From the NCBI GenBank assembly GCA_046760505.1, contig JBHIEG010000026.1:1-21268 (forward strand): a stretch of 21,268 bases of DNA. The letters are read 5' to 3'. This document shows, piece after piece, positions 1-15,846 of this stretch. The notes beneath the pieces were generated by a model. The model ran no database searches. It saw nothing but the letters and a program-made list of their open reading frames with translations, and was not told the origin of the DNA. Position numbers and translations under genes: made by a program. This DNA is from CAYFZR01 sp046760505 [NCBI: Candidatus Hydrothermarchaeota archaeon]. GTDB taxonomy: Archaea > CAYFZR01. The stretch's first letter is position 1. The number at the start of each line of letters is the position of its first letter.

Positions 1-117
1 TTTTAAGGTCTCAGGATTGATTTGAAAGGATCTTGTGGAATCTTTCCAGAGGATGTAAAATTTTTACCACAAAAAATATAGCGAGTTATTAAAGATCTAA
101 ATTGAAGGTGATATGAG
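1..117. other. Leader before first gene, no gene seen
   Basis: I see no coding region or RNA gene in these bases. An A/T-rich stretch at 71-80 (AAAAAATATA) could be a TATA box for the gene starting at 118, which would put transcription start near 103. A Shine-Dalgarno-like AAGGTGAT lies just before the TTG start. The bases may include the 3' flank of a gene outside the window. Confidence 0.4.
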
Positions 118-333
118 TTGGGGGAAAAGGAAGAGATTGAAAGAAGAAGTAGGCTCATTCAATCTAAACTGAGGGATATACTGAGACTATGTGATCTAGA
201 GAAATTAGATTTATTGGAGAGAGAACTAGAGGATATCCGTCAGAATCTCATACTATTCTGGGATTTTAGCGAGGTGGAGAAAGCCAAAGTGAAAAGATGC
301 CTTTGCTACAATCCCAGGAAGTGCCCGGCATAG
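118..333 (+). CDS. Small helical protein with Cys-rich tail
   Basis: Unrecognised 71-residue protein. The start is a TTG placed about 6 nt after AAGGTGAT, a good match to the archaeal anti-SD. Residues 1-58 are charged and look like two amphipathic helices, probably coiled. The last 14 residues carry three cysteines (C61, C63, C69) in a basic setting (KRCLCYNPRKCPA), and there is another at C25. This could be a small metal site, but the spacing matches no zinc finger that I know. It lies 37 bp before the GH57 amylase on the same strand and may share its transcript. The start codon, RBS and lack of any competing frame support it being real. Function unknown. Confidence 0.6.
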   Translation: MGEKEEIERRSRLIQSKLRDILRLCDLEKLDLLERELEDIRQNLILFWDFSEVEKAKVKRCLCYNPRKCPA

Positions 334-370
334 AGTACCGATAAAAAATTCAACAAGGAATTCGGCAAAA

Positions 371-1852
371 ATGCCAGATATATGTCTTTGTTTCGAAGTT
401 CATCAGCCCTACAGGCTAAATAAAGATTTTTACTGGAATAAAACTAGACTTAAAAAGGATATAGATCTTTTCAACCTCTACTTTGATGAGGTAACGGATA
501 AAAAAATACTGGATAGAGTGGCAAACAAATGCTACTTTCCGACCAATAACCTAATTTTGAAAGCCATAGATTTTTTTAAATCTGAGAAAGGCAGGATCAG
601 GATTGCATTGAGTTTGTCAGGAGTTTTCATAGAGCAGTGCGAAAAATACAATCCAGATCTGCTGGATTCGTTTCAGAAATTAGCAGACACAAAATGCGTT
701 GAATTTTTAAATCAAACTTACTACCATTCTTTAGCAAGTTTATACGAAGATAAGGATGAATTCATAGAACAGGTTGAAATGCATAGGTCTTTAATTAAAG
801 ATTTGTTCAAAATCGAGCCGGTGGTTTTTGAAAATACGGAGTTGATCTACAACAACAGAATAGCCAAGATAGCCGAAGAATTGGGTTTTAAGGGAATATA
901 TACGGAGGGAATAGAGAGAATATTAAATGGACGCTCTCCAAATTATATTTACAGGGCTTTTAACTCCGAGATAAAAGTTTTACTGAGAAATTATAGACTT
1001 ACAGATGATTTCGGATTTAGATTCTCAGCCAAATGGTGGGAGGAGTATCCACTTACTGCCGAAAAATACGCCACCTGGCTTGAGTCTACCCCCGGACAAA
1101 TAATAAATTTGTTCGCTGACTACGAAACTTTCGGCGAGCATCACTGGCCTGAGACCGGAATTCACGATTTTCTATGGCATTTGTTCCTTGAGGTTAACAA
1201 AAGACCTTCCCTTACTTTTATTACGCCGGGAGAAGCAATCGAAAAACATCAGGCAGCGGGAGAGATAGACGTTTACGAAAAAATAGATACGGTATCTTGG
1301 GCGGATTTAGAAAGGGATACAAGTTGCTGGCTTGGCAATCAAATGCAGCACGCATGTTATAAAGGGATAAAGGACCTTGGCAATCTGATTAAAGAAACTG
1401 AAAATGAGGAGTTTAAAAGAATATGGAGGCTCCTTCAAACTAGCGATCATTTTTACTATATGTTTACGGCTGGTGGAGCACCAGGAGAGGTGCACAGTTA
1501 CTTCAGTCATTTTAACACGCCCATGGATGCTTTTTTGACTTACTTCAGCATTTTATGCGATTTTGAAAATAGAGTCAAAGAGGGTATAAAAATCGTAGAT
1601 CCATTCTACTTCTTTATCAGAGATGGAGAATTTACAGGAAAGGTCGCTTTCAGTTTAAAGGGCTTTAAAAAAATTATAGAAAAAATAGACATTTCGAGCA
1701 TTGAGTACCATATGAAAAGGGGAGACATAGAGAACTGGATGAGTCATTCCATAAAAAATCAAGAATTGGCAAATAAAATCGCCAACCTAAAGGAAATGGA
1801 AGGTGAAAGGCTGAGAAAGGCTTTGATTAATCTAATAAGCCAAATTATCTAG
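371..1852 (+). CDS. GH57 alpha-amylase-like glycoside hydrolase
   Basis: Family GH57 retaining glycosidase of the alpha-amylase type (493 aa), acting on alpha-1,4-glucans such as glycogen or starch. There is no signal peptide, so it is probably cytosolic and used for storage polysaccharide turnover. The five GH57 regions are visible: HQPYRL at 11-16, SLSGVFIEQ near 81-89, FENTELIY at 153-160 with E157 as the expected nucleophile, FADYETFGEHHW at 248-259 with D250 as the expected acid/base, and SWADLERDTSCW near 309-320. Length fits the archaeal amylase branch. The RBS is weak (AAGGA about 12 nt upstream). The stop codon directly abuts the stop of the convergent tusB-like gene. No glycosyltransferase partner, often found beside this type, is in the window. 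Confidence 0.9.
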   Translation: MPDICLCFEVHQPYRLNKDFYWNKTRLKKDIDLFNLYFDEVTDKKILDRVANKCYFPTNNLILKAIDFFKSEKGRIRIALSLSGVFIEQCEKYNPDLLDSFQKLADTKCVEFLNQTYYHSLASLYEDKDEFIEQVEMHRSLIKDLFKIEPVVFENTELIYNNRIAKIAEELGFKGIYTEGIERILNGRSPNYIYRAFNSEIKVLLRNYRLTDDFGFRFSAKWWEEYPLTAEKYATWLESTPGQIINLFADYETFGEHHWPETGIHDFLWHLFLEVNKRPSLTFITPGEAIEKHQAAGEIDVYEKIDTVSWADLERDTSCWLGNQMQHACYKGIKDLGNLIKETENEEFKRIWRLLQTSDHFYYMFTAGGAPGEVHSYFSHFNTPMDAFLTYFSILCDFENRVKEGIKIVDPFYFFIRDGEFTGKVAFSLKGFKKIIEKIDISSIEYHMKRGDIENWMSHSIKNQELANKIANLKEMEGERLRKALINLISQII

Positions 1853-2125
1853 CTAAAACCAAGAAACGTTTTTTTCGTAGTTGAATATTAGATCCACCAT
1901 ATCGTCGTACGAAACAAGGTTTAAGTCTCCCTTCAATCCTCTAGCAAGAAAATCATCCTTAGAAACATAGATCTTTACATTAGGGTGTTCTTCAAAATTT
2001 AGATAGGCGTAAACTCCATCTTGAATCAGCAAAACTCCTACTTCCTCTTCTCTGCTCCTTATTTTAATCAGTTCTTTTACGAATGAGAGTTCTCTATTCG
2101 AAGCTATTATGTATAGAGTTGACAT
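1853..2125 (-). CDS. tusB: TusB/DsrH-like sulfur relay subunit
   Basis: A 90-residue DsrH/TusB homologue, the smallest subunit of the DsrEFH/TusBCD hexamer that passes persulfide sulfur between carriers in the cytoplasm. Family signs are the short length, LLIQDGVYAYL near residues 32-42, SKDDFLARGL near 55-64 (compare E. coli-type DLEARGL), a VDL segment and a terminal SWF. It contains no cysteine, so it cannot carry the sulfur itself. I chose ATG at 2125 because it lies one base after the stop of the tusC-like gene; a longer frame reaching 2158 would overlap that gene. Third gene of the leftward tusD-tusC-tusB operon. Confidence 0.82.
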   Translation of the reverse strand: MSTLYIIASNRELSFVKELIKIRSREEEVGVLLIQDGVYAYLNFEEHPNVKIYVSKDDFLARGLKGDLNLVSYDDMVDLIFNYEKNVSWF

Positions 2126-2126
2126 T

Positions 2127-2474
2127 TTACCAAGCCCATACAAAATCGCTTTTAGCAATAATCCGGTCTATTTCAGCCAAATCTACTTTATTAAAAAAGG
2201 AGGGGACCTCTTCAATTTTTCTCTTCATCAAATCTTTCTCATACACATAAAAACTGGCATTGGTCATTTTCAGAAGTTCAATATCCTTATAAATCTCCTT
2301 TTGGCTTATCAATGCGGATTTTTGGTCTGGTAATATGGAATAGACGCCTTCTCCAATGAATATCAGGTTTACGGAGTGGTCTCCTATTGTACATCCTACT
2401 GCAAGCCTTAATGCCTCCTCCGTATTCAAAGAACCGTATGGGGGCCTACGTATTACAATAGATATGGTACGCAT
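2127..2474 (-). CDS. tusC: TusC/DsrF-like sulfur relay subunit
   Basis: A 115-residue DsrF/TusC-type protein, second subunit of the sulfur relay hexamer. The N-terminal beta strand is followed by RRPPYGSLNTEEALRLAVG (9-27), the typical family pattern, then LIFIGEGVYSIL (37-48) and a terminal hydrophobic strand ending FVWAW. It has a single cysteine, C28. The RBS TAGGTG includes the stop codon of the preceding tusD-like gene, so the two genes are translationally linked. Context and order (D-C-B) match tusDCB and dsrEFH. Confidence 0.82.
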   Translation of the reverse strand: MRTISIVIRRPPYGSLNTEEALRLAVGCTIGDHSVNLIFIGEGVYSILPDQKSALISQKEIYKDIELLKMTNASFYVYEKDLMKRKIEEVPSFFNKVDLAEIDRIIAKSDFVWAW

Positions 2475-2482
2475 AAGAACAC

Positions 2483-2827
2483 CTAGACAAAACAGATTAG
2501 ACGGTCTACCTCCTTTACTATGTTGGATAGATCGTACATATCTCCGTACTTCGCATTTTTGATTAGATCTTTTTCTTCAAAACCTCTTTCCTTAACGTTC
2601 TGTCCGCAGGTAACCAGATTAATGTTTAACTTGGAAAGTTCATCTGGTATGTTTATCTTCTCCTTCGTAAACTCCAGGTTTGGACAGGCATTATAAATCC
2701 CGTTATCCATGAGAAACAATGATACACTATGTCCCTTTTTCAATGCAGATTTTATCAACTTCAGGACAGTGGTAGAATTTTGCGAATTAAATGGATCTGT
2801 ATAAAGTATTATTCCTAGATGTCCCAT
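2483..2827 (-). CDS. tusD: TusD/DsrE-like sulfur transfer subunit
   Basis: A 114-residue DsrE/TusD-type protein. In the family a conserved cysteine before an RG turn carries the persulfide. Here C74 in NLVTCGQNVKERG fills that role. Other signs are GHSVSLFLMDNGIYNA at 32-47 and the closing strand VDRLICFV. Further cysteines are C48 and C112. The RBS is GAGGGGAT just before ATG 2827. It is the first gene of the leftward set and the only one there with a TusD-type active cysteine. A TATA-like tract (2862-2872, minus strand) lies about 35-45 bp upstream. Confidence 0.85.
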   Translation of the reverse strand: MGHLGIILYTDPFNSQNSTTVLKLIKSALKKGHSVSLFLMDNGIYNACPNLEFTKEKINIPDELSKLNINLVTCGQNVKERGFEEKDLIKNAKYGDMYDLSNIVKEVDRLICFV

Positions 2828-2899: not shown

Positions 2900-2941
2900 A
2901 GTGGAATATAGTATTTTTTGGTTAGGAAGTTGGGGAGTGAG

Positions 2942-3265
2942 ATGAAACTACTGCTAATATCGACGAAGGATCCAATCTCTCATGAACACCCGGAACTTGT
3001 ACTCGAAATAGCAAAAATAGCGAAAGAAAAAGGAGCCCATGTAAAGATATTCTTAATAGAGGACGGAGTCCTCCTTAGAAAGGGACAGGAAATAGAGGAA
3101 AAAGTGAAAGAAACAGCGGAAGCAGGAATCAGCATAAAGGCAGAGGACATTTCTTTGAAGACAAGAGGTGTTTCTGAGGACAAACTCGTGGATAATATAG
3201 AGGTATCGAATCTTGATGAACTCTTCGACTCCATAATTGAGTTCGATAGGGTGGTATGGTTTTAA
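2942..3265 (+). CDS. DsrE-like protein without cysteine
   Basis: A 107-residue DsrE/TusD-fold protein, first gene of the rightward sulfur operon. It shows the family layout: opening strand MKLLLIST, VKIFLIEDGVLL in the middle, then IKAEDISLKTRG and a closing strand FDRVVWF. It has no cysteine anywhere. At the place where DsrE proteins carry the sulfur-accepting Cys (before the RG turn) it reads ISIKAEDISLKTRG. It therefore probably acts as a structural or docking subunit. I chose ATG 2942, which has GGGGAGTG just upstream, over a TTG at 2918 that would add an atypical extension. It is followed after 12 bp by the CxxC paralogue. Confidence 0.78.
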   Translation: MKLLLISTKDPISHEHPELVLEIAKIAKEKGAHVKIFLIEDGVLLRKGQEIEEKVKETAEAGISIKAEDISLKTRGVSEDKLVDNIEVSNLDELFDSIIEFDRVVWF

Positions 3266-3277
3266 GAGGTGAAATAA

Positions 3278-3643
3278 ATGAGAAAAGAAATTACTTTCTT
3301 CATGGTAAGAGGACCATATGATGATGAATCAGTGTACACAGCACTAAGACTGGCTCAAAAAGCAAGAGAAAAAAAAGTCAACGTAAACTTCTTCTTCTAT
3401 CTTACAAGTACCGTGGTTGGAAATAGAGGACAAAAACCAGCGGAATACCCGCCAATTGAAGAGTTGGTAAGGGACATACTTAAGAAAGGTCTGAAGAACC
3501 CTAAAGCAGATGCAATCGCATGTATAAAATGTACAGACGCGAGAGGAGTTACGAATAGCCAGACGGAGGGCATCATAATAGGCGGTCTGTACGATCTAAT
3601 GGAGTGGATAAGGGATACAGACAAAACCATAATGCTGTCTTGA
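3278..3643 (+). CDS. DsrE-like protein with CxxC
   Basis: A 121-residue DsrE-family protein. It has the family's opening (ITFFMVRGPYDDESVYTALRLA), a middle FFFYLTSTVVG strand in place of the usual DGV motif, and ACIKCTDARG at 81-90. C82 and C85 form a CxxC at the expected sulfur-carrying position before the RG turn. This is the only cysteine pair among the three DsrE-fold genes of this operon, so it should be the redox-active or persulfide-carrying subunit. The RBS GAGGTGAAATAA precedes ATG 3278. CxxC-type DsrE proteins are known in archaea and anaerobes; the exact substrate is not inferable. Confidence 0.78.
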   Translation: MRKEITFFMVRGPYDDESVYTALRLAQKAREKKVNVNFFFYLTSTVVGNRGQKPAEYPPIEELVRDILKKGLKNPKADAIACIKCTDARGVTNSQTEGIIIGGLYDLMEWIRDTDKTIMLS

Positions 3644-3653
3644 GGTGATTGAG

Positions 3654-4031
3654 GTGGGAAAGAAGGTACTCACAATAATAACGAGGGCACCTTACGGAAG
3701 TGAAGACAATTTCGGAGCCTTAGACATGATCTCCACCGCTCCAGCCGCCGATTTGGAAGCAGAGGTAATATTCCTGGGAGGAGGAGTTCATAGCACGGTG
3801 AAGGGGCAGGAACCGGGATACGGTCCCCTTGCAATATGGAGAAAGGGAATACCAAGTGTCGAAGATAGAATTAATAATGCGAAGGAATTTGGAGTAAAAA
3901 TATCCGTGCTGGATAGAGATCTGAAAAGAAGGGGGATAGGAGAAGAAGAACTCATATCGGGCATTGATATAATCTCTTTGGAAGAGGTGACGGATAAGAT
4001 ATTAGAGAGTGATGCCACATTTGTATTTTAG
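3654..4031 (+). CDS. DsrF/TusC-like protein without cysteine
   Basis: A 125-residue DsrF/TusC-type protein. VLTIITRAPYGSEDNFGALDM opens it (compare RRPPYGSLNTEEALRLA in the leftward TusC), EVIFLGGGVHS follows, and the C-terminal half carries VLDRDLKRRG and a closing strand ATFVF. No cysteine is present. I chose GTG 3654 because AGGTGATT at 3643-3650 sits at proper SD distance; GTG 3645 lies inside that SD. With the two genes before it, it forms a second three-protein DsrE/F set, parallel to TusDCB but without a TusB-like third member. Confidence 0.75.
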   Translation: MGKKVLTIITRAPYGSEDNFGALDMISTAPAADLEAEVIFLGGGVHSTVKGQEPGYGPLAIWRKGIPSVEDRINNAKEFGVKISVLDRDLKRRGIGEEELISGIDIISLEEVTDKILESDATFVF

Positions 4032-4039
4032 GTGATAGG

Positions 4040-4276
4040 ATGAAAGAAATAAAGCCAAGCCATACACTGGATGTGAAGGGAAAGATATGTCCCTATCCCC
4101 TCTTCCATACAAAAAAGACGGTAGAAATACTCAATAAAGGAGAAATATTGGAAGTAATAGCAACCGACCCAGTGGCTCCTGATAACATTTCTTCATGGGC
4201 AGAAGACCACGGACATGAAATACTTGAGGTTAGAAAGGAAGGAGATGTGTTCAAAATATACCTGAGGAAGGGTTAA
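4040..4276 (+). CDS. tusA: TusA sulfur carrier protein
   Basis: A 78-residue TusA/SirA-family sulfur carrier. The hallmark CPYP at 17-20 supplies C17 as the persulfide-bearing residue, followed by the expected helix and the LEVIATDPVAPDNISSWAED stretch typical of the family. In known systems TusA takes sulfur from a cysteine desulfurase or rhodanese and hands it to DsrE/TusD. Here it follows three DsrE/F-fold genes with 8 bp spacing (RBS GGTGATAGG), so those proteins are its likely partners. It is the only TusA seen in the window. Confidence 0.92.
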   Translation: MKEIKPSHTLDVKGKICPYPLFHTKKTVEILNKGEILEVIATDPVAPDNISSWAEDHGHEILEVRKEGDVFKIYLRKG

Positions 4277-4277
4277 C

Positions 4278-4625
4278 TTGAGGGAGATAATTGCCAGGGG
4301 GGAGATGTGTGTTGGATGTAGAGCATGCGAAATCGCATGCTCTTATTACCAGCAAAAAACCTTCAATCCGTCTATTTCTTGTTTAATAATCTGGAGAGGT
4401 AATGAAAAGGAAGGAGAAACAGGAATAATGCTTAAAAAACCAGGAACATTCGTTTTGGCATATGAAACAGGCGACGTTGAGGTAATAAGGGAAGATGAAG
4501 CAAGTGGAGAGATGGCTGACAAGCCAATTCTAAGCAGAAAAGACTGCGATTCATGTGTTAAACTTGAAAACGCCCTTTGCACTATTTTTTGCTTGAGAAA
4601 TGCCTTAATCCAGAGAGAGGTATAG
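4278..4625 (+). CDS. Dicluster 4Fe-4S ferredoxin-like subunit
   Basis: A 115-residue iron-sulfur protein. CVGCRACEIAC (C11, C14, C17, C21) and C90, C93, C101, C105 give the CxxCxxCxxxC ... CxxCx7CxxxC spacing of two-cluster electron-transfer subunits (HycB or AOR-associated type). Expected ligand sharing is C11/C14/C17 with C105, and C90/C93/C101 with C21. C35 is extra. The start is TTG 4278, one base after the tusA stop; an internal ATG at 4305 would remove a strand conserved in such proteins. The stop is 2 bp before the TTG proposed for the AOR-like gene, implying translational coupling and a physical partnership with it. Confidence 0.8.
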   Translation: MREIIARGEMCVGCRACEIACSYYQQKTFNPSISCLIIWRGNEKEGETGIMLKKPGTFVLAYETGDVEVIREDEASGEMADKPILSRKDCDSCVKLENALCTIFCLRNALIQREV

Positions 4626-4627
4626 TT

Positions 4628-5806
4628 TTGACCTACAATAGATTAATTCTTCTGATAGATCTTTTTAAAAAGGAGTATGAAGAAATAGACCTTGAAGATG
4701 ATATTATAGAGGAGAAAATTGGCGGAATAGGAATAAATGAATACATTATGGAGAAATCAAACAGAAATTCGGTGATAATAGGGACCGGTCCGCTGACAGG
4801 ATCTCTGACATTGGGATCCTGCATAGGTGTTTTATCCGGATTTTCGCCGGTAACTGCCAAATTGGAGCACGTGGTTATAGATTGGCATTTCTCTCCTGAG
4901 TTAAAGTTCGCGGGTTATGATTTCCTAGTAATAAAGAACAAATCTTTAGAGCCAGTTTTTCTGTGGATACACGACGAGATCGCTGACATAATGAATGCGC
5001 ACGATTATTGGGGACTTGATGCCAGAACAACCACTGAAAAAATAAGAACGGATCTGGGTTATGAGAACGTTCAGGTTTTAAACATAGGGATTCCCGGAGA
5101 GTATAGAAAGAACATATCTTCTTTTGGTCTAAATTACACTCTTCTGAGAGATCCTTATGCATTATCTGCAGTTTTCGGGGAGAAAAATCTAAAAGCAGTA
5201 GCTGTCGCAGGTCTGGGGGATTTGTATCCTCATGATCCGGAAGAATTTATTAAGCTCTCTGAAAAAGTTATAGATAGATTAAGAAACAATAAATCAGCCA
5301 TAGAATTGATGGAAAACGGAAACATAAGCCTTTTAGATGGAGCACATGTATTGGAGGGAAAGAATGCCAGAAAAAGAGGCTGTTTCTCATGTCCTGTTGC
5401 ATGTCGCTTTCATATCTTGAGCGAGGAAATCTGTTTGTGGGGTTTAGATTCAACAGACGTATACGCAATGAGAAAACTTGATTTTGAGATCGAAACGATT
5501 CTCAAAATAATCGACAGGTGTCATGCTCTTGGATTAAACGTGGAGGGCACCTTGGATATCCTAAAGAAATATGGTGTTGAAGAAAAGGATGCTCTAGATT
5601 TCGTTGAAGAGATCGCCAGAGACAGGAAAAAGTATGTATCCGAAGTTAAAAGTAGTTTTATCGTTCAAAAATTAGAAAAATTCGAAAGTTACAGACTGGG
5701 TTTATTAACAGGCGTATGCCCGTTACTGATCCATTCGGGAGTATATGACAAAGAAATCTTACAGAGTTTGATAAGAACAGCGATAGGCATTGAGACACAT
5801 TTATAA
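4628..5806 (+). CDS. Short, degenerate AOR-family protein
   Basis: Homologue of tungsten aldehyde:ferredoxin oxidoreductase, about 392 aa against the usual 600 or so. Domain 1 is recognisable: KIGGIGINEYI, IGTGPLTG (51-58), ELKFAGYD (91-98), GEKNLKAVAVAG (184-195). The cluster ligands C252, C255, C259 (CFSCPVAC) and C364 (TGVC) are kept. The pterin and catalytic parts are not. The RGGxGAVMG loop reads RDPYALSAVFG, GLD reads GLN (302-304), the Asp of the second DxxGLC is absent, and the segment with the YDPRG and His-bearing RGGCH motifs is missing: only about 105 residues separate C259 from C364, against about 199 in P. furiosus AOR. Start TTG 4628 (RBS GAGGT) is preferred to ATG 4577, which overlaps the ferredoxin gene. 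Probably an iron-sulfur protein, not a working AOR. Confidence 0.78.
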   Translation: MTYNRLILLIDLFKKEYEEIDLEDDIIEEKIGGIGINEYIMEKSNRNSVIIGTGPLTGSLTLGSCIGVLSGFSPVTAKLEHVVIDWHFSPELKFAGYDFLVIKNKSLEPVFLWIHDEIADIMNAHDYWGLDARTTTEKIRTDLGYENVQVLNIGIPGEYRKNISSFGLNYTLLRDPYALSAVFGEKNLKAVAVAGLGDLYPHDPEEFIKLSEKVIDRLRNNKSAIELMENGNISLLDGAHVLEGKNARKRGCFSCPVACRFHILSEEICLWGLDSTDVYAMRKLDFEIETILKIIDRCHALGLNVEGTLDILKKYGVEEKDALDFVEEIARDRKKYVSEVKSSFIVQKLEKFESYRLGLLTGVCPLLIHSGVYDKEILQSLIRTAIGIETHL

Positions 5807-5850: not shown

Positions 5851-6585
5851 TCATCTTTTTCTAAACTTATACAGGTCTAATTCCGCTGAAACAATTTCTT
5901 CCTTGTTTTCTTTTTCTGCCTCGCGAACGATACCCCATGGAGATACTATCGCACTTTTGCTGCCTATAATTTTTCCCCTCGAAGATAACCCGAGACAGGC
6001 ATTTTTTAAAATAAACAATGAATTTTCCCTTGCCATTTTTACAGAAGCAGGATGCCCGGTTACCGGAGGATGATCTTCAGATGGCAAAGAGATCGGGAGG
6101 AATATTACATCAGCACCCATGACCGCTAATTTTTTTACCGTCTCTGGGTAGAGTATATCAGCACATATTAGAATGCCTATTCTAGCATGCCCAGAATCGT
6201 AAACAAAAAAGTCCTTACCCGCTTCGAGCCCTTTTTCTCTCTCTTTATCAGTTATATGTATTTTTTTGTATTTTCCTAGTATTTCGCCATTTTTAAATAA
6301 GAATGCTGTGTTATAATATTTGTCTTTCTCTTTTTCGATTACTGTTCCACCAACGATATAGATACCGAGCTTTTCTGATATCTCTTCGAGTAGTGAGATG
6401 GTGGGATAAAAGGTTCTCTCGTATATTTCCTCTATAGGCTCCTCTAAGGATGTTACTGAAAAATACTCTGGCAAGCAAATGAAATCGGGCTTGAATTCAT
6501 TGAAAGACTTCAGTATCAATCTTTCTGCCTTTTTCAAGTTTGATTCAAAATCTCTGATTTCCATTTGGATTAAACTTACTCGCAT
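5851..6585 (-). CDS. Nitrilase-superfamily amidohydrolase
   Basis: Carbon-nitrogen hydrolase (nitrilase fold, omega-amidase-like), cytosolic. The Glu-Lys-Cys triad is visible (numbered from the TTG at 6615): E50 in CLPEYF, K118 in KYKKIH and C151 in ILICADILYPE. The following block GADVIFLPISLPSE and the MARENSLFILKNA segment are typical. I prefer ATG 6585 (protein begins MRVSLIQMEI, 244 aa) because it matches the family N terminus; a TTG at 6615 overlaps the end of the upstream gene. Neither has a good RBS. Last gene of a leftward operon after two ThrRS editing-domain genes. The substrate is not deducible. Confidence 0.85.
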   Translation of the reverse strand: MRVSLIQMEIRDFESNLKKAERLILKSFNEFKPDFICLPEYFSVTSLEEPIEEIYERTFYPTISLLEEISEKLGIYIVGGTVIEKEKDKYYNTAFLFKNGEILGKYKKIHITDKEREKGLEAGKDFFVYDSGHARIGILICADILYPETVKKLAVMGADVIFLPISLPSEDHPPVTGHPASVKMARENSLFILKNACLGLSSRGKIIGSKSAIVSPWGIVREAEKENKEEIVSAELDLYKFRKR

Positions 6586-6607
6586 GCTATTTTCATGCTT
6601 ATTATGC

Positions 6608-7021
6608 TTATTCAATGGATCTGGAGAGTTCTGACAGAGGATGACCCTTGCACTTCAGTTCAAATTTTTTGTACCATCCAAATGGGGCTCTCGTTACTCG
6701 ATAGTTTTTTTCCTCCAGTCTTTTATGCACCTCATTTAACAATTCAACCGCTATCTTAGGAGAGGCTAGATTGGAAGAAAGATGGGCAAATGGATATAAA
6801 ACGATATCTTTCGCTTTTACCTTCTCTGCCACATCAATTATATTTTCCAAGGTTTTTTCAAGCGTTTTTCCATCCTCGTCAATTTTCTCTACTGCGGTGA
6901 AACAGACCAAGCAATCATGCACGGTTGTCTTTTCCTTTTTGATATCCTCCACTACAGGTATTTTGACCTTTTTAGTGGGCTCAAAACTGATGTAATCAGA
7001 GTGAATGAAAAGTATTTTCAT
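6608..7021 (-). CDS. Free-standing ThrRS editing domain
   Basis: A 137-residue protein equal to the archaeal ThrRS N-terminal editing domain (DTD-like fold), which removes serine from mis-acylated tRNA-Thr. It begins MKILFIHSDYISFEPTKK and carries IVLYPFAHLSS, APFGWYKKF and CKGHPLSELSR. Residues H80, Y117, K118 and E131 align with H83, Y120, K121 and E134 of the P. abyssi domain at a constant offset of 3, so it should be active. No aminoacylation domain follows: the frame stops at 6608 and the next gene is a nitrilase. Split ThrRS-ed/ThrRS-cat arrangements are known in some Crenarchaeota; the catalytic partner is not in this window. RBS AGGAGAG. Confidence 0.88.
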   Translation of the reverse strand: MKILFIHSDYISFEPTKKVKIPVVEDIKKEKTTVHDCLVCFTAVEKIDEDGKTLEKTLENIIDVAEKVKAKDIVLYPFAHLSSNLASPKIAVELLNEVHKRLEEKNYRVTRAPFGWYKKFELKCKGHPLSELSRSIE

Positions 7022-7029
7022 AGTCTCTC

Positions 7030-7401
7030 CTAGTTTGCTTTTATTTCTCTTGAAAGAACGGATAAAGGATGTCCTTTAGATCTCAAGGCTAAATTTCGAC
7101 ACATAAGACTTCCTGAAGTGACGTTATATCCTTTTTTCTCCAATGAATCCTGAAGTTTCTCCAGAAAACACGCGGCCTCGTCTACGAAGCATGACTCACA
7201 ATTTTTGAAGGGAGAGGAAGGGTATAACACAATATTTTTTGTTTTAACCTTCGATGCGACGTCCTCTATTTCTTTCACGGCTCCCTCTACTGATTTTAAC
7301 TCGTGTTCTAGGTCGCATTCTGTAATCATTACGGTTAATGCATTTGTTACTCTCTTATTTTCGATCTCTGTGAAGTCCGTGTGAACGAATAAAAATCTCA
7401 T
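7030..7401 (-). CDS. Inactive paralogue of ThrRS editing domain
   Basis: A 123-residue divergent copy of the next gene's product. The shared frame is clear: MRFLFVHTDF against MKILFIHSDY, VASKVKTKNIVLYP against VAEKVKAKDIVLYP, and SKGHPLSVLSREI against CKGHPLSELSRSI. All four key positions differ: His80 becomes Pro64, Tyr117 becomes Cys101, Lys118 becomes Arg102 and Glu131 becomes Val115. It has gained a cysteine cluster around 68-78 (NCESCFVDEAAC). It is probably a non-catalytic partner, since the editing domain and the related DTD fold form dimers, or it has a new ligand. Eight bp separate it from the active copy, and it is divergent from threonine synthase. Confidence 0.78.
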   Translation of the reverse strand: MRFLFVHTDFTEIENKRVTNALTVMITECDLEHELKSVEGAVKEIEDVASKVKTKNIVLYPSSPFKNCESCFVDEAACFLEKLQDSLEKKGYNVTSGSLMCRNLALRSKGHPLSVLSREIKAN

Positions 7402-7524: not shown

Positions 7525-8796
7525 ATGCATGTCATAGGATTAAGGTGCAGAGAGTGTGGAAAAGAGTATCCCCATGAACTACTGAATACATGTAATAAAT
7601 GTTTCGGTCCGCTTGAACCTGTCTACAATTTCGATTACATTCAAGAAAACATAAGTAAAAAAAATATCGAGAAGGGTCCCAGCAGTATTTGGAGGTACAG
7701 GATCCTTTTGCCTGTGGAAAGAGAAGAGGTTATAGATTTAGGCGGTGGTTATACTCCCCTGCATAAATGCAAAAATCTTGCCAAAGAATTGGGCTTGAAG
7801 GAACTTTATATAAAAGACGATACTGCAAACCCTACTAACTCTTTTAAGGATAGAGTAGTTCCAGTAGCAGTAACAAAGGCTTTAGAATTTAATATGGAAG
7901 CAGTAGGTTGTGCTTCCACGGGTAATTTAGCAGCAAGTCTTGCGGCTCATGCTGCTAAGGCAAATTTAGATGCATTCATATTCATTCCCTCCGGTTTAGA
8001 ACTAGGGAAAATAGTCCAGATGCTGATATTCGAGCCGAATGTAATAGCAGTGAGAGGCACATACGACGATGCAAATAGGCTCGCCACAGAAATCGCTGAT
8101 ATATATAACTGGGCCTTTGTTAACATAAACGTCAGACCTTATTATGTGGAAGGCTCAAAGACAAGCGCCTACGAAATCGTCGAGCAACTAGACTGGACCA
8201 CGCCTGATAGAATAATCATACCAATGGCCAGCGGAGCGTTGTTCTGCTCAATTGCCAGAGGCTTGAAAGAACTGGAAAAACTCGGTTTAATAGAGGAAAA
8301 CCATACAATGCTTACCGGAACCCAGCCTAAAGGGTGCAGCCCTATTGTGGATGCTTGGTTGGAGAAGAGGGATTACATAATACCAGTTGAAAAGCCGAAC
8401 ACAATAGCAAAGAGCCTAGCGATCGGAGATCCTGCTGATGGATACTATGCCCTAGAGACCATAAAAGAAACCAGAGGAAATGCATATGCCCCCACAGATA
8501 AAGAGCTGGTAGAAGCTATAAAACTGCTAGCAAGAACAGAGGGTATTTTTGCCGAACCAGGATCTGCAACTACAATAGCAGCCCTGAAAGCATTGCTAGA
8601 AAGTGGTGGCATAGAAAGAGATGAGAGAATCGTCTGTTATATAACCGGAAGCGGTCTGAAGACCACTGACTCTGTGGTAAACGAAACTATAAAACCCTAT
8701 GAAATAGATCCAACGGTAGAGTCCTTTAAGGAATATTTGGAAAAGGGGTGGTACCATGGCAAGGGTAAGGATAAGATTCTCTTCCGTGTTACATGA
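7525..8796 (+). CDS. thrC: Threonine synthase
   Basis: PLP-dependent threonine synthase (423 aa), converting O-phosphohomoserine to threonine and phosphate. The N-terminal zinc ribbon has C8, C11, C23 and C26 (CREC, CNKC). The PLP lysine is K108 in [17 protein letters not shown] binds substrate and cofactor phosphate, and [11 protein letters not shown] closes the site. ATG 7525 has GAGGTGT as RBS. The C terminus runs 41 bp into the MoaD-like gene, in another frame. It is divergent from two ThrRS editing-domain genes, so threonine supply and Ser/Thr proofreading neighbour each other here. Confidence 0.95.
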
Positions 8797-9037
8797 TTTA
8801 ACGAGGGAAAGAGAAACAGAGTTAGAGGGCGTAAGCACGGTAAAGTCCCTGTTCAACACACTGGTGGAGAAGTACGGTAAGGAATTTAGTGAGAGAGTTT
8901 TAGACGATACAGGAAGACCAAGAAGATTCGTGAACGTCTATGTGAATGGCAAGGATATCAGGCATCTAAAATATATAGACACCGAACTGAACGATGGAGA
9001 TGAGGTCTCCATACTTCCCGCTGTGAGCGGTGGATGA
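8756..9037 (+). CDS. MoaD/SAMP-type ubiquitin-like sulfur carrier
   Basis: A 93-residue beta-grasp protein of the archaeal MoaD family. It opens [16 protein letters not shown], has the [14 protein letters not shown] and [16 protein letters not shown] segments and ends in the essential Gly-Gly. The C-terminal glycine is adenylated by an E1-like enzyme and then carries a thiocarboxylate or is conjugated to proteins, so it can serve molybdopterin or tungstopterin synthesis, tRNA thiolation or SAMPylation; which one cannot be decided here. ATG 8756 lies inside the end of thrC with RBS AAGGGGTGG, so the two genes are translationally coupled. No MoaE or E1 gene is in the window. Confidence 0.9.
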
Positions 9038-11454: not shown

Positions 11455-12432
11455 ATGCCAGTAAGTAAGGCGCCATATAAGAGAGGTTACAAGCATACGA
11501 AGTCAAGGGGTAGCGATCCAGCCGTATGGTGCGAGATGTGCGGGAGAAGGGTTCCCAGATTCAAGTCCTTCTCCAAGATCCAGAGCTTTTACATAGCTGA
11601 TCCTGTGGTAAGGGGAGTGGTAGATCAACATTCCTTCAACGTTAGAAAGGTATATTACTGTCCTAAATGCGCCAAATTCCTTGGAATAGTTGAAAAGAAA
11701 AGACAAAGGATGGAACAACCTAAAAGGATACCTGAAGTATCCGGTAACGTGATTATAAGAAAGATACACGGTCCAGAAGTGATGTTTAAGCATAAAGATT
11801 ATGCCTTCATCATAGATGTTGAAAATAAGAAGGAAAGAATAAAAAATTTGATAATCAGGCCCAAGACAATAGTTCAAAACATCAACCTCGAGCCAAAAGA
11901 GGTAAGGTTTGACGTTCCGGAAAAAACCATAAAACAAATACATTTTAGAGCGAGAGTTGATGATGAAGTAACAATAAAGGGAACCGCAATTTCGTTCGAG
12001 ATTCTTAAAGATGGGAGGCCTCTAGAAAATAAGGTTCATTACGTCAGCATAATGGACGAAAGTGCCCTGAACAAAGAAATAAAACTGGAGATAGAAAAGA
12101 GGTTAGAAAGGACAAAGATTACCGCCAACGAAATGTTAAAGGTTGAATTAGTGGTCAAAAACACCGGAGATTATCCTGCATACTTCGAAATAAAGGATAA
12201 AGTACCGAAGGGATGGTTAACAAGAGGAGACACAAGAGTACACAGTTATCTACAACCCAAGGAAGAATTGGTTCACGTATATCAGATGAAACCCTTTAAA
12301 GCAGGAAAATACAGGATACCAAGATGCGAGATGATGTACGAAGACGATCTCGAGGTTAAAAGGGTTCTCAGCAATGAGGTAACAGTAGAAGTATTGCCTG
12401 CAAAAAAAGCATCAAAGGTGCCCCTAGAATAA
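11455..12432 (+). CDS. S26e-like zinc domain fused to beta-sandwich domains
   Basis: A 325-residue protein. Residues 1-90 closely resemble ribosomal protein S26e: a basic start, C26-x2-C29 followed by GRRVPRFK, then NVRKVYYC-PKC (C69, C72) with AKFLGIV and a basic tail. S26e proteins end here, but this one continues. Residues about 95-205 are rich in beta strands (VMFKHKDYAFIIDVEN, KEVRFDVPEKTI). Residues about 205-318 look like a DUF11/CARDB-type Ig-like fold (LKVELVVKNTGDYPAYFEIKD, KAGKYRIPRCEMMYEDD). No signal peptide or membrane segment is seen. It may bind the ribosome or RNA through the S26e-like part, but that is inference. RBS GGTG. Function unknown. Confidence 0.75.
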   Translation: MPVSKAPYKRGYKHTKSRGSDPAVWCEMCGRRVPRFKSFSKIQSFYIADPVVRGVVDQHSFNVRKVYYCPKCAKFLGIVEKKRQRMEQPKRIPEVSGNVIIRKIHGPEVMFKHKDYAFIIDVENKKERIKNLIIRPKTIVQNINLEPKEVRFDVPEKTIKQIHFRARVDDEVTIKGTAISFEILKDGRPLENKVHYVSIMDESALNKEIKLEIEKRLERTKITANEMLKVELVVKNTGDYPAYFEIKDKVPKGWLTRGDTRVHSYLQPKEELVHVYQMKPFKAGKYRIPRCEMMYEDDLEVKRVLSNEVTVEVLPAKKASKVPLE

Positions 12433-13870: not shown

Positions 13871-14626
13871 ATGAATCTGCCAATTTTGCTGCTGCTCGTC
13901 TTTTTAATTGTTCCCATAAGGGGAGATGTAATCCTTGAGTCTACAGTCATTCCGGACCCCATACCCAAGGATGGCTCAGGGGTTCTAATCGTGGATGTTA
14001 GCGTTGTCAAGGACGATGACCCCCTTACAAAGGATACAGCCTACGATTTTTATTTAGAGATTTCATCAGATGCTTTCAAGGGGGAAAATTATATCAAAAC
14101 CAGACCCATAAATCTCCCTGTTAATACGAGCAAGAGCTACCAATTCGATATCAATCCAATTTCATCTGGAAAAGTAGACATCAAGGCTAAATACGGGATA
14201 ATCGTCTGTACAGATGATTACTGTCCCATAGAGCCGAACAAATTTGAGACAAAGACGCTATCAGTTTCATTTGAAGTATCAGATGAATACGCGCCATTAG
14301 GCTACACCGACATAGTAAAAGCAAAGGATATGCTTAAGAAGAATTATGAGAAGAGTTTTGAGGACATAAAAGATCTGAACACAACCATAGTTTCTTTAAG
14401 AGAAAAGTCATCACGCTTAAAAGATGCTTACCTTTCCACGCTATCGAGATATAATTTAAAGAAAGAAAAATTCGAGTATTTTGTAAAAGAAATGGATAGA
14501 GTCAAGAAAGAGAAGATCCTGATCGATTTTTTCTTATTTTTCTCCATTACATCGATCATGGTTAACGATTACATCAAATTAAGGAGAGGAAAAAAATGGC
14601 GAATAGTAAGATGGTCCTACCGATAG
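13871..14626 (+). CDS. Membrane-anchored DsbD-alpha-like exported protein
   Basis: 251 aa. Residues 1-18 form a signal peptide. Residues 19-137 are a beta-sandwich whose end, KYGIIVCTDDYCPIEPNKF, resembles the redox pair region of the DsbD N-terminal domain (Tyr, then Cys, a few acidic residues, Cys, Pro). C113 and C118 are the only cysteines. Residues about 147-216 form a coiled coil, about 217-234 a membrane helix, and the last 15 are strongly basic, placing the C terminus in the cytoplasm. The body lies outside the cell. The TATA box at 13845-13854 suggests a leaderless message from ATG 13871. Its 3' end overlaps the next gene by 31 bp. DsbD-alpha homology is by motif and context only. Confidence 0.7.
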   Translation: MNLPILLLLVFLIVPIRGDVILESTVIPDPIPKDGSGVLIVDVSVVKDDDPLTKDTAYDFYLEISSDAFKGENYIKTRPINLPVNTSKSYQFDINPISSGKVDIKAKYGIIVCTDDYCPIEPNKFETKTLSVSFEVSDEYAPLGYTDIVKAKDMLKKNYEKSFEDIKDLNTTIVSLREKSSRLKDAYLSTLSRYNLKKEKFEYFVKEMDRVKKEKILIDFFLFFSITSIMVNDYIKLRRGKKWRIVRWSYR

Positions 14627-15846
14627 TACTGCTCTTGCTCTCAACCCCTGTATGTTCCAAGGTTATTCTGGAGTACTTCTGGAATTCTGAATGCGCTGCC
14701 TGTAAACTTCTTGCCAAAGAGATGTTCTTTGAAAAACTGGAGGAGAAATATGGATCAAATCTGATCGTGAAGAAATACAATACGGACAATTCAGAGAACA
14801 GAGATTACTTCAAGACGAAATATAATGGAGAAATTCTTCCGCATGTCGTCATAAACGAAAGAATAAACCTGATAGGGTATGCTGAAATAACAAAAAATAC
14901 TGAACGCATAATTCAAGAAGAAATAAGGAATGGAGGAGTCTCAACAGTTGCGTTTACCAGCAGTATGTTAATCAAGCCTAAAATAAATCCGATCTTAACT
15001 CCTGTGGTTCAAAAAACAAAGGAGGAGACTTCAACCCAAAAAAGACCCCTCACTAGGTATGAACGAATCTCATTGCTTTTGGAAGATATAGAGAAAAAAA
15101 TTGGAAACCTGGAACTCATGGGTATCGACGTTACCGAAGAAAAAGAAAGCCTGAACAAACTTCAATTCAAACTTAGGGGTTTGGATGGGAAGGAAAATGA
15201 AGATGACTACGAGCCAAGGTTAAATGAAGTGCGCATAATGGGAGAGAAGTTGGATGAAAAGATTACAGAGAATGAAAAGAACCTAGCATATGATATGTTG
15301 TCTAAGGCAAGGGACGATTTAATTCCACCAAGAGAAATCTTTTTCATATCTCCAACTGGAAGAGAACTTCTAACCAAGGCCAACGAATATATAGAAAGGG
15401 CAAACTATCAGTACAGGGTGGCCGAAACCGCATATTATTCAAAAGACTACTTAAAGGCATATACATGGGCAGCAACTAGCCTCAACAGTATTAAAAATGC
15501 CAAAGAACTTATATCCAAAGCTGAAATAATGGAAGAGGCATATATTCGGGAAAATATTCAAGAAGATAGTAGAACCGTTAATAAGTATGCTGAAGGTCTA
15601 AGATATAACGACGAAAAGATAAACAAATTACGGAACGAGATATCTACCCTTAAGAGTGAAATCAAATTTTATGAAGACGGTATCGCCACTCATTCGAGGG
15701 GGATAGAAGAGCTGAATTCTGAGATGAAAGAACTCAGCAAAAATATAAACTCAAAGAGAGAGAGAAACTGGAGTTACAAGTTAGGCTTGCTGATTTACAT
15801 AACAATGCTTCTACTCTCAGCGCCTATAAAGGAGAGTGGGCTATGA
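14596..15846 (+). CDS. Exported thioredoxin-like protein, coiled coil, C-terminal anchor
   Basis: 416 aa. Signal peptide 1-20 (basic start, VLPIVLLLLSTPVC). Residues 22-110 have a thioredoxin fold: VILEYFWNSECAACKLLA with CxxC at C33/C36, KKYNTDN, and ILPHVVIN with the cis-Pro candidate P82. The linker about 115-140 is followed by long helical segments (about 140-390), probably coiled coil, and a membrane helix about 394-409. The redox domain is therefore extracytoplasmic and held by a C-terminal anchor. Mid-region blocks such as AETAYYSKDYLKAYTWAATSL suggest TPR-like helices. Start ATG 14596 has RBS GGAGAGG. It is translationally coupled to the DsbD-alpha-like gene before it. Confidence 0.78.
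   Translation: MANSKMVLPIVLLLLSTPVCSKVILEYFWNSECAACKLLAKEMFFEKLEEKYGSNLIVKKYNTDNSENRDYFKTKYNGEILPHVVINERINLIGYAEITKNTERIIQEEIRNGGVSTVAFTSSMLIKPKINPILTPVVQKTKEETSTQKRPLTRYERISLLLEDIEKKIGNLELMGIDVTEEKESLNKLQFKLRGLDGKENEDDYEPRLNEVRIMGEKLDEKITENEKNLAYDMLSKARDDLIPPREIFFISPTGRELLTKANEYIERANYQYRVAETAYYSKDYLKAYTWAATSLNSIKNAKELISKAEIMEEAYIRENIQEDSRTVNKYAEGLRYNDEKINKLRNEISTLKSEIKFYEDGIATHSRGIEELNSEMKELSKNINSKRERNWSYKLGLLIYITMLLLSAPIKESGL

Follow-up and report, generated by a model that had tools for sequence, protein, structure and literature searches.

Domain structure and genomic context of the short AOR

The stretch of DNA considered here, hereafter the window, comprises nucleotides (nt) 1 to 21,268 of contig JBHIEG010000026.1 of a Candidatus Hydrothermarchaeota archaeon (assembly GCA_046760505.1). 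At 4628..5806 on the forward strand it encodes, from a TTG start, a protein of the AOR/WOR family with 392 amino acids (aa), which consists of domain 1 and a reduced portion of domains 2 and 3 and is here called the short AOR. The gene begins 2 nt past the stop codon of a gene for a small ferredoxin (4278..4625, +). Three other archaeal genomes (G606, G329, and G522) carry short homologues of 408-427 aa with 31-37% identity. Comparison of these four short forms with full-length AORs supports the view that the AOR fold and the iron-sulfur cluster site were kept, whereas the contacts to the tungstopterin appear to have been lost.

The first part of this view agrees with the original prediction, made from the window alone, that the cluster ligands and the landmarks of domain 1 remain. 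The cluster ligands C252, C255, C259, and C364 are all present in the window protein, as are the motifs GPLTG, ELKFAGYD, and GEKNLKA. The four [4Fe-4S] cysteines (CxxCxxxC ... C) recur in all short forms and in 43/43 full-length AORs; the excerpted text on the Aromatoleum aromaticum AOR (PMC10413684) states that they are conserved in 99% of the proteins. The Pfam domain AFOR_N matches residues 7-195 of the window protein (E 6.7e-35; score 121.1 bits, cut-off 29.8) and is found at E <= 0.1 in all four short forms. AFOR_C, in contrast, reaches 13.3 bits in the window protein, below its cut-off of 27 bits. Weak AFOR_C matches (E <= 0.1; best 2e-9) occur in all four short forms, and at E 1e-20 the domain matches 24 of 29 alignment rows, which is the number of full-length rows, the matching rows not being named. 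A frameshift, truncation, or assembly error is a very unlikely explanation and was discarded, because the reading frame runs uninterrupted across the fourth cluster cysteine, a convergent nitrilase-like gene (5851..6615, -) follows, and the same architecture exists in three other genomes.

Among solved structures, phmmer places the Pyrococcus furiosus AOR (1aor) first (E 1.1e-23, residues 44-223). The structure prediction proposed as a check on the original prediction also returned an AOR fold. An AlphaFold2 model computed from a 29-row alignment (predicted local distance difference test, pLDDT, 89.0; predicted template modeling score, pTM, 0.91) superposes on 1AOR with a Z score of 37.7 and a root mean square deviation of 1.8 A over 390 residues, and Foldseek ranks 1aor first for this model (E 1.5e-27). 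As the superposition spans the 1AOR range 2..520, the lost parts are internal segments (about 129 residues) and everything thereafter. The short AOR thus has about 213 residues fewer than the P. furiosus enzyme (392 versus 605). It shares with 1AOR the fold and the equivalents of C288, C291, C295, and C494, but differs from it in that positions 76, 95, 96, 338, and 489 are replaced, the segment around H448 is absent, and nothing is aligned past residue 520.

Residues of the tungstopterin site

Contact positions are given in P. furiosus AOR numbering, mapped through the 1aor alignment, and the four short forms were compared with 24 full-length AORs in one alignment and with 43 in another. For the A. 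aromaticum enzyme, the excerpted text lists R75, N92, G94, R181, A182, D361, and D504 as contacts (PMC10413684). According to the parts of a 2025 review drawn on here, Asn93 and Ala183 are main-chain ligands of Mg, Glu313, His448, and Tyr427 belong to the second shell, and all known AOR/WOR members hold a W or Mo bis-metallopterin cofactor, which is kept even in BamB and YdhV without the usual second-shell residues (PMC12096430). In the set of 43, Arg or Lys is found at 76 in 42 (with one gap) and at 186 in 43, G95 in 42, G96 in 40, Asn or Asp at 338 in 42, D343 in 43, the Arg of YDPRG in 43, H448 in 43, and D489 in 39.

Seven of these contact or second-shell positions (R76, G95, G96, N/D338, D489, H448, and the Arg of YDPRG) are replaced or missing in every short form, which bears out the predicted loss of the tungstopterin site. 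The four proteins read I/L/L/G at position 76, D/A/V/T at 95, and H/C/A/S at 338, and all carry Trp (W86 in the window protein) in place of G96, right beside the G95 contact. Position 489 is a gap in one alignment and L/Y/L/Y in the other, whereas H448 falls into a gap in all four proteins in both alignments and neither alignment places an Arg at the YDPRG position. Further positions read P/K/F/R (186), L, G, V, and N (R182), and T or S (E313). The deletion of the YDPRG/RGGCH segment, also part of the original prediction, is equally apparent from the spacing of the cluster cysteines: the third and the fourth are separated by 103-124 residues in the short forms (104 between C259 and C364 in the window protein) as opposed to 199-214 in the 24 full-length AORs, and only 28-41 residues follow the last cysteine as opposed to 107-139. 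The Asp before the last cluster cysteine is gone from the window protein, as noted earlier. Two other sequence changes hold for the window protein and fail as traits of the family. RGGxGAVMG is indeed altered, to LLRDPYALSAVFG, and this change is at its most extreme in the window protein, but two relatives still read GFGAIFG; likewise, GLD has become GLN, a replacement that does not mark the family, since the Asp persists in two of the four short forms.

The short forms also share residues of their own. All four have E29, G67, H81, W86, E117, Y170, R248, E289, V305, P365, and L367 in common, and each of these residues occurs in at most three of the 24 full-length rows. With four sequences, this pattern is no more than suggestive of conservation specific to the clade.

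An apparently reduced ferredoxin subunit

The ferredoxin encoded upstream of the short AOR has 115 aa and nine cysteines, eight of which are conserved, and resembles WorS, the small subunit of two-subunit tungsten oxidoreductases. Its TTG start lies 1 nt past the stop codon of a tusA-like gene. At all four loci, a ferredoxin of 111-115 aa with these eight cysteines directly precedes the short AOR; the two genes overlap by up to 8 nt or lie up to 12 nt apart. Cysteine motifs I and IV are kept and motifs II and III are absent in all four proteins, whereas II and III are present in 15/15 aligned ferredoxins with 16 cysteines, 13 of which stem from full-length AOR loci. The small ferredoxin thus lacks the four clusters (16 Cys) that characterize WorS. 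In 16-Cys polyferredoxins, motifs I and IV and motifs II and III form two separate two-cluster domains. Given this domain layout, the small ferredoxin would be a WorS from which the inner domain was cleanly excised. Since it lacks motifs II and III and is encoded beside a stripped AOR, the large and the small subunit of a tungsten enzyme both appear reduced.

The coupling to the preceding ferredoxin gene, which the original prediction had proposed for the window, extends to the other loci. When 344 genomes from the phylum holding the Halopiger locus were searched with a profile of the small ferredoxins, strong matches (4.3e-56 to 7.1e-54) came from three genomes and lay in each case at the short AOR; as three of the four profile rows were contributed by these genomes, they match by construction, with at most 13 candidates per genome among the matches listed. 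Nine weaker matches, the best of them at 7.5e-11, are spread over G522, G606, and four other genomes and include 16-Cys WorS-like subunits adjoining full-length AORs.

Directly upstream of a Bathyarchaeota AOR (L085:1-1238; L039/L085 in G001:C2), the place of a 16-Cys WorS is likewise taken by a small ferredoxin of this type with eight cysteines. This AOR is cut by the contig end and, unlike the short AOR, keeps the pterin contacts of domain 1 (R76, N93, G95, G96, R182, A183, and R186).

Distribution and phylogeny

The short AOR group is rare in the genomes searched, yet occurs in at least two classes. Among the 344 genomes mentioned above, five match the short AOR at E <= 1e-28. Three of them are G606 (2.8e-63), G329 (4.5e-61), and G522 (4.7e-47), whose matches cover the full length in open frames of 409-430 aa, and the other two contain AORs of 638-644 aa. 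A profile of the four short forms detected these same three genomes again, two among the 58 genomes of the class of G606 and one among the 59 of the class of G522. No further short form was found in 246 genomes related to G522. In the phylum of the Thorarchaeota locus, 23 of 195 genomes have matches (E <= 1e-28), which are confined to query residues 2-249, and no short form was found there: 21 of the 23 frames have at least 630 aa, and the remaining two, of 432 and 419 aa, reach contig ends. In the phylum of the Bathyarchaeota locus, a search of 300 genomes with the window protein (E <= 1e-30) yielded one full-length AOR and no short form; the four-row profile had no match at E <= 1e-60 in 398 genomes, a sample that overlaps with the former and holds no known positive, with at most four candidates per genome among the matches listed. 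Scans of genome contigs with the window protein and of viral contigs with the four-row alignment revealed no relative. All of these phyla were sampled and not exhausted.

In a tree of 48 rows (four short forms, 43 full-length AORs, and one fragment) built from the N-terminal region, which was cut shortly after the first cluster motif, the short forms group in one clade with support of 100/99, which was recovered in 100% of 200 bootstrap trees. This clade lies within a 35-row side of the tree (support 95/99); the tree is rooted at its midpoint only, and the window protein sits on a long branch. In addition to the short form, AFOR_N matches five further proteins in G606, two in G329, and 13 in G522, one of the latter over 57 residues only. 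Consequently, the short form is an additional paralogue in these organisms. G522 has 14 matches to the domain if the short form is counted (L102, L104, L107, L110, L112, L114, and L116-L123), one of them spanning only 57 profile positions.

Sulfur-related genes at the locus

In the window, the ferredoxin and the short AOR conclude a run of six genes on the forward strand. It starts with a DsrE-like, weakly TusB-like gene (2918..3265), followed by genes for a DsrE (TusD)-like protein with a Cys in the motif ACIKCTDARG (3278..3643), a DsrE/F (TusC)-like protein (3645..4031), and a TusA-family sulfur carrier of 78 aa with a CPYP motif (4040..4276; PF01206, E 9.8e-23). DsrE and Tus assignments were made with Pfam and NCBIfam. 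The gaps within the run DsrE-DsrE-TusC-TusA-Fdx-AOR measure 12, 1, 8, 1, and 2 nt and are so short that the six genes look like one operon. DsrE, TusC, and TusA domains thus occur in a single gene run, which resembles the DsrEFH/TusBCD-TusA relay in its TusA and DsrE/TusC-like genes. To our knowledge, neither an AOR-fold protein nor a ferredoxin subunit is part of the described relays of this kind. A second, divergent triple on the reverse strand (1853-2827) encodes DsrE (TusD)-like (2483..2827), TusC/DsrF-like (2127..2474), and TusB/DsrH-like (1853..2158) proteins, so that six genes of the DsrE superfamily are found within 2.2 kilobases (kb).

The original prediction also assigned the short AOR to sulfur transfer and proposed a search for short homologues beside tusA and dsrE. 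Three short homologues exist, but none of them adjoins these genes, which lie on other contigs in all three genomes (the short AOR contig of G606 has only 6,955 bases). In two of the three, a tusA-dsrE pair is instead found beside genes that by inspection resemble iscS and iscU. The neighbors of the short AOR differ among the three genomes; in G329, as judged by inspection, they include an HdrE/HdrD-like pair no more than about 3 kb away and hyp-like genes at distances of up to 10 kb. A function in sulfur transfer therefore fits the gene run of the window and is a weakly supported lead from a single locus.

Possible function of the gene pair

Class II WORs, as described in the parts of PMC13328260 drawn on here, consist of a large subunit, WorL, which is identified by both InterPro domains including AFOR_C, and of the four-cluster small subunit WorS. 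The gene pair resembles these enzymes (PfASOR/WOR5 and CbGOR) in combining an AOR-fold large subunit with a ferredoxin-type small subunit, in the single [4Fe-4S] site of the large subunit, and in the WorS cysteine motifs I and IV. It is unlike them in the loss of the tungstopterin contacts and in the number of clusters predicted for the small subunit, which is two and not four. The short AOR also departs from WorL in staying below the AFOR_C cut-off, in the tungstopterin/Mg contacts, and in the second shell formed by E313, Y427, and H448. These features suggest that a former enzyme has turned into an electron-transfer pair. We consider it reasonably probable that the short AOR is a pterin-free paralogue of WorL and the ferredoxin a pared-down WorS, and that the two form a heterodimer for electron transfer, which in this organism works with sulfur carriers. 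Such a heterodimer would have three [4Fe-4S] clusters, a single one in its large subunit and two in the small one, and could move electrons without tungsten chemistry. That the short AOR is no oxidoreductase, as originally proposed, would follow from the residues lost. Because the pair ends the DsrE/TusC/TusA run, its electrons would most likely be exchanged with persulfide-bearing carriers; this is the weakest step of the proposed mechanism.

Several observations weigh against this interpretation. The confident structure model leans on the full-length AOR rows, since AlphaFold2 fails when given the four short rows alone (pLDDT 42.3). R186 is retained in one short form and D343 in two. The R182 position holds Arg in only 30 of the 43 full-length AORs and Asn, like one short form, in nine; Thr, found at the E313 position in three short forms, occurs there in 4 of 24 full-length rows; and N93 and Y427 vary among full-length AORs. 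The backbone contacts N93 and A183 are likewise less telling. GLN versus GLD, R182, E313, and Y427 no longer serve as main evidence, being variable in either the short or the full-length forms. The residues specific to the short clade could indicate a new ligand-binding or catalytic site and not plain electron transfer. As for the partner, the construction of the ferredoxin profile lessens the weight of its strong matches, and the Bathyarchaeota pairing with an AOR whose domain-1 contacts are intact means that the small ferredoxin alone is no mark of tungsten loss and that WorS may have been reduced before the AOR or on more than one occasion. Finally, a neighborhood of sulfur genes exists at only one of the four short AOR loci.

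Among the alternatives, the one we would give most credit, although it remains doubtful, is that the pair is a dedicated persulfide reductase or sulfide oxidase in all hosts, which passes ferredoxin electrons via three clusters to the sulfane sulfur on TusA and DsrE, or back. The tightly spaced gene run of the window speaks in its favor, and TusA and DsrE are encoded somewhere in all three other genomes. However, this co-presence says little, as both proteins are common in control genomes (TusA matches in 11/14, DsrE in 8/14), and both the separation of tusA and dsrE from the short AOR and the location of two tusA-dsrE pairs beside iscS/iscU-like genes speak against it. It is rather unlikely that H81, W86, Y170, and R248 form a new catalytic or ligand site in the vacated cavity. 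These four residues are identical in all short forms and occur in only 0, 0, 2, and 2 of the 24 full-length rows, but with four sequences identity at single sites may be due to chance. Still less likely is a pseudoenzyme that partners with full-length AORs or regulates them, for instance by capping or extending a WorLS filament. This idea gains some plausibility from the additional AFOR_N proteins in all three genomes and from the protein nanowire that, according to the excerpted text, is formed by the A. aromaticum AOR (PMC10413684), but no full-length AOR gene adjoins the short gene in the stretches covered (the window and L076-L078), and the short AOR is already paired with a small subunit.

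Although the short forms group with pterin-binding AORs and co-occur with other AFOR_N proteins, we regard it as highly improbable that they act as a chaperone or carrier that holds the tungstopterin for insertion into true AORs: none of the four retains R76, G95, G96, N/D338, or D489, and all four have the Trp at the G96 position. The chance that a sequencing deletion or a decaying pseudogene of an ordinary AOR accounts for the absent internal segments is close to nil. This explanation was rejected, as it is contradicted by the homologues, which have the same architecture in three genomes, fall into one clade, and combine an open frame with conserved cluster cysteines and new shared residues.

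A bolder version of the favored electron-transfer reading can be formulated, which we deem improbable in its entirety. A two-subunit tungsten enzyme would have been stripped once, in archaea, to a tungsten-free redox device with three clusters, in which a new conserved site made up of H81, W86, Y170, and R248 replaced the pterins and which in this organism would gate the electrons of a sulfur-carrier relay and represent a novel kind of persulfide-handling oxidoreductase. If the loss of the cofactor is true, the short forms would be the first cofactor-free branch of the AOR/WOR family known to us, monophyletic and also devoid of half of the ferredoxin subunit, and would show how a metalloenzyme turns into an electron-transfer protein. 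Annotations as 'aldehyde ferredoxin oxidoreductase' that are derived from the N-terminal domain can then be wrong. The module consists of two genes only and hence is directly testable. Among the papers listed by our searches of open-licence PMC articles, we found no description of a short or pterin-free AOR or of an AOR together with TusA/DsrE or sulfurtransferases, and no work that joins AOR, TusA, DsrE, and archaea.

Other genes in the window

Two tandem genes on the reverse strand (6608-7021 and 7030-7401) encode free-standing editing domains of archaeal threonyl-tRNA synthetase (tRNA-Thr_ED; E 3.9e-52 and 1e-12) and adjoin a threonine synthase-like gene (7525-8796, +). The latter overlaps by 41 nt with a gene of the ThiS family (8756-9037, +), whose product ends in GG. 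This pair possibly represents a thiocarboxylate-fed synthase. A ThiN match was also obtained among the genes of the window. The product of the gene at 11455-12432 (+) has, by inspection, an S26e-like zinc-ribbon N-terminus; its C-terminal region gives a BatD-like match that stays under the cut-off. The editing domains, the ThiN match, and the S26e-like stretch mark the gene content of the window as archaeal. The gene at 14596-15846 (+) encodes a secreted-looking protein that matches no Pfam family at E <= 0.001 and contains, by inspection, an N-terminal thioredoxin-like stretch with a CxxC motif.
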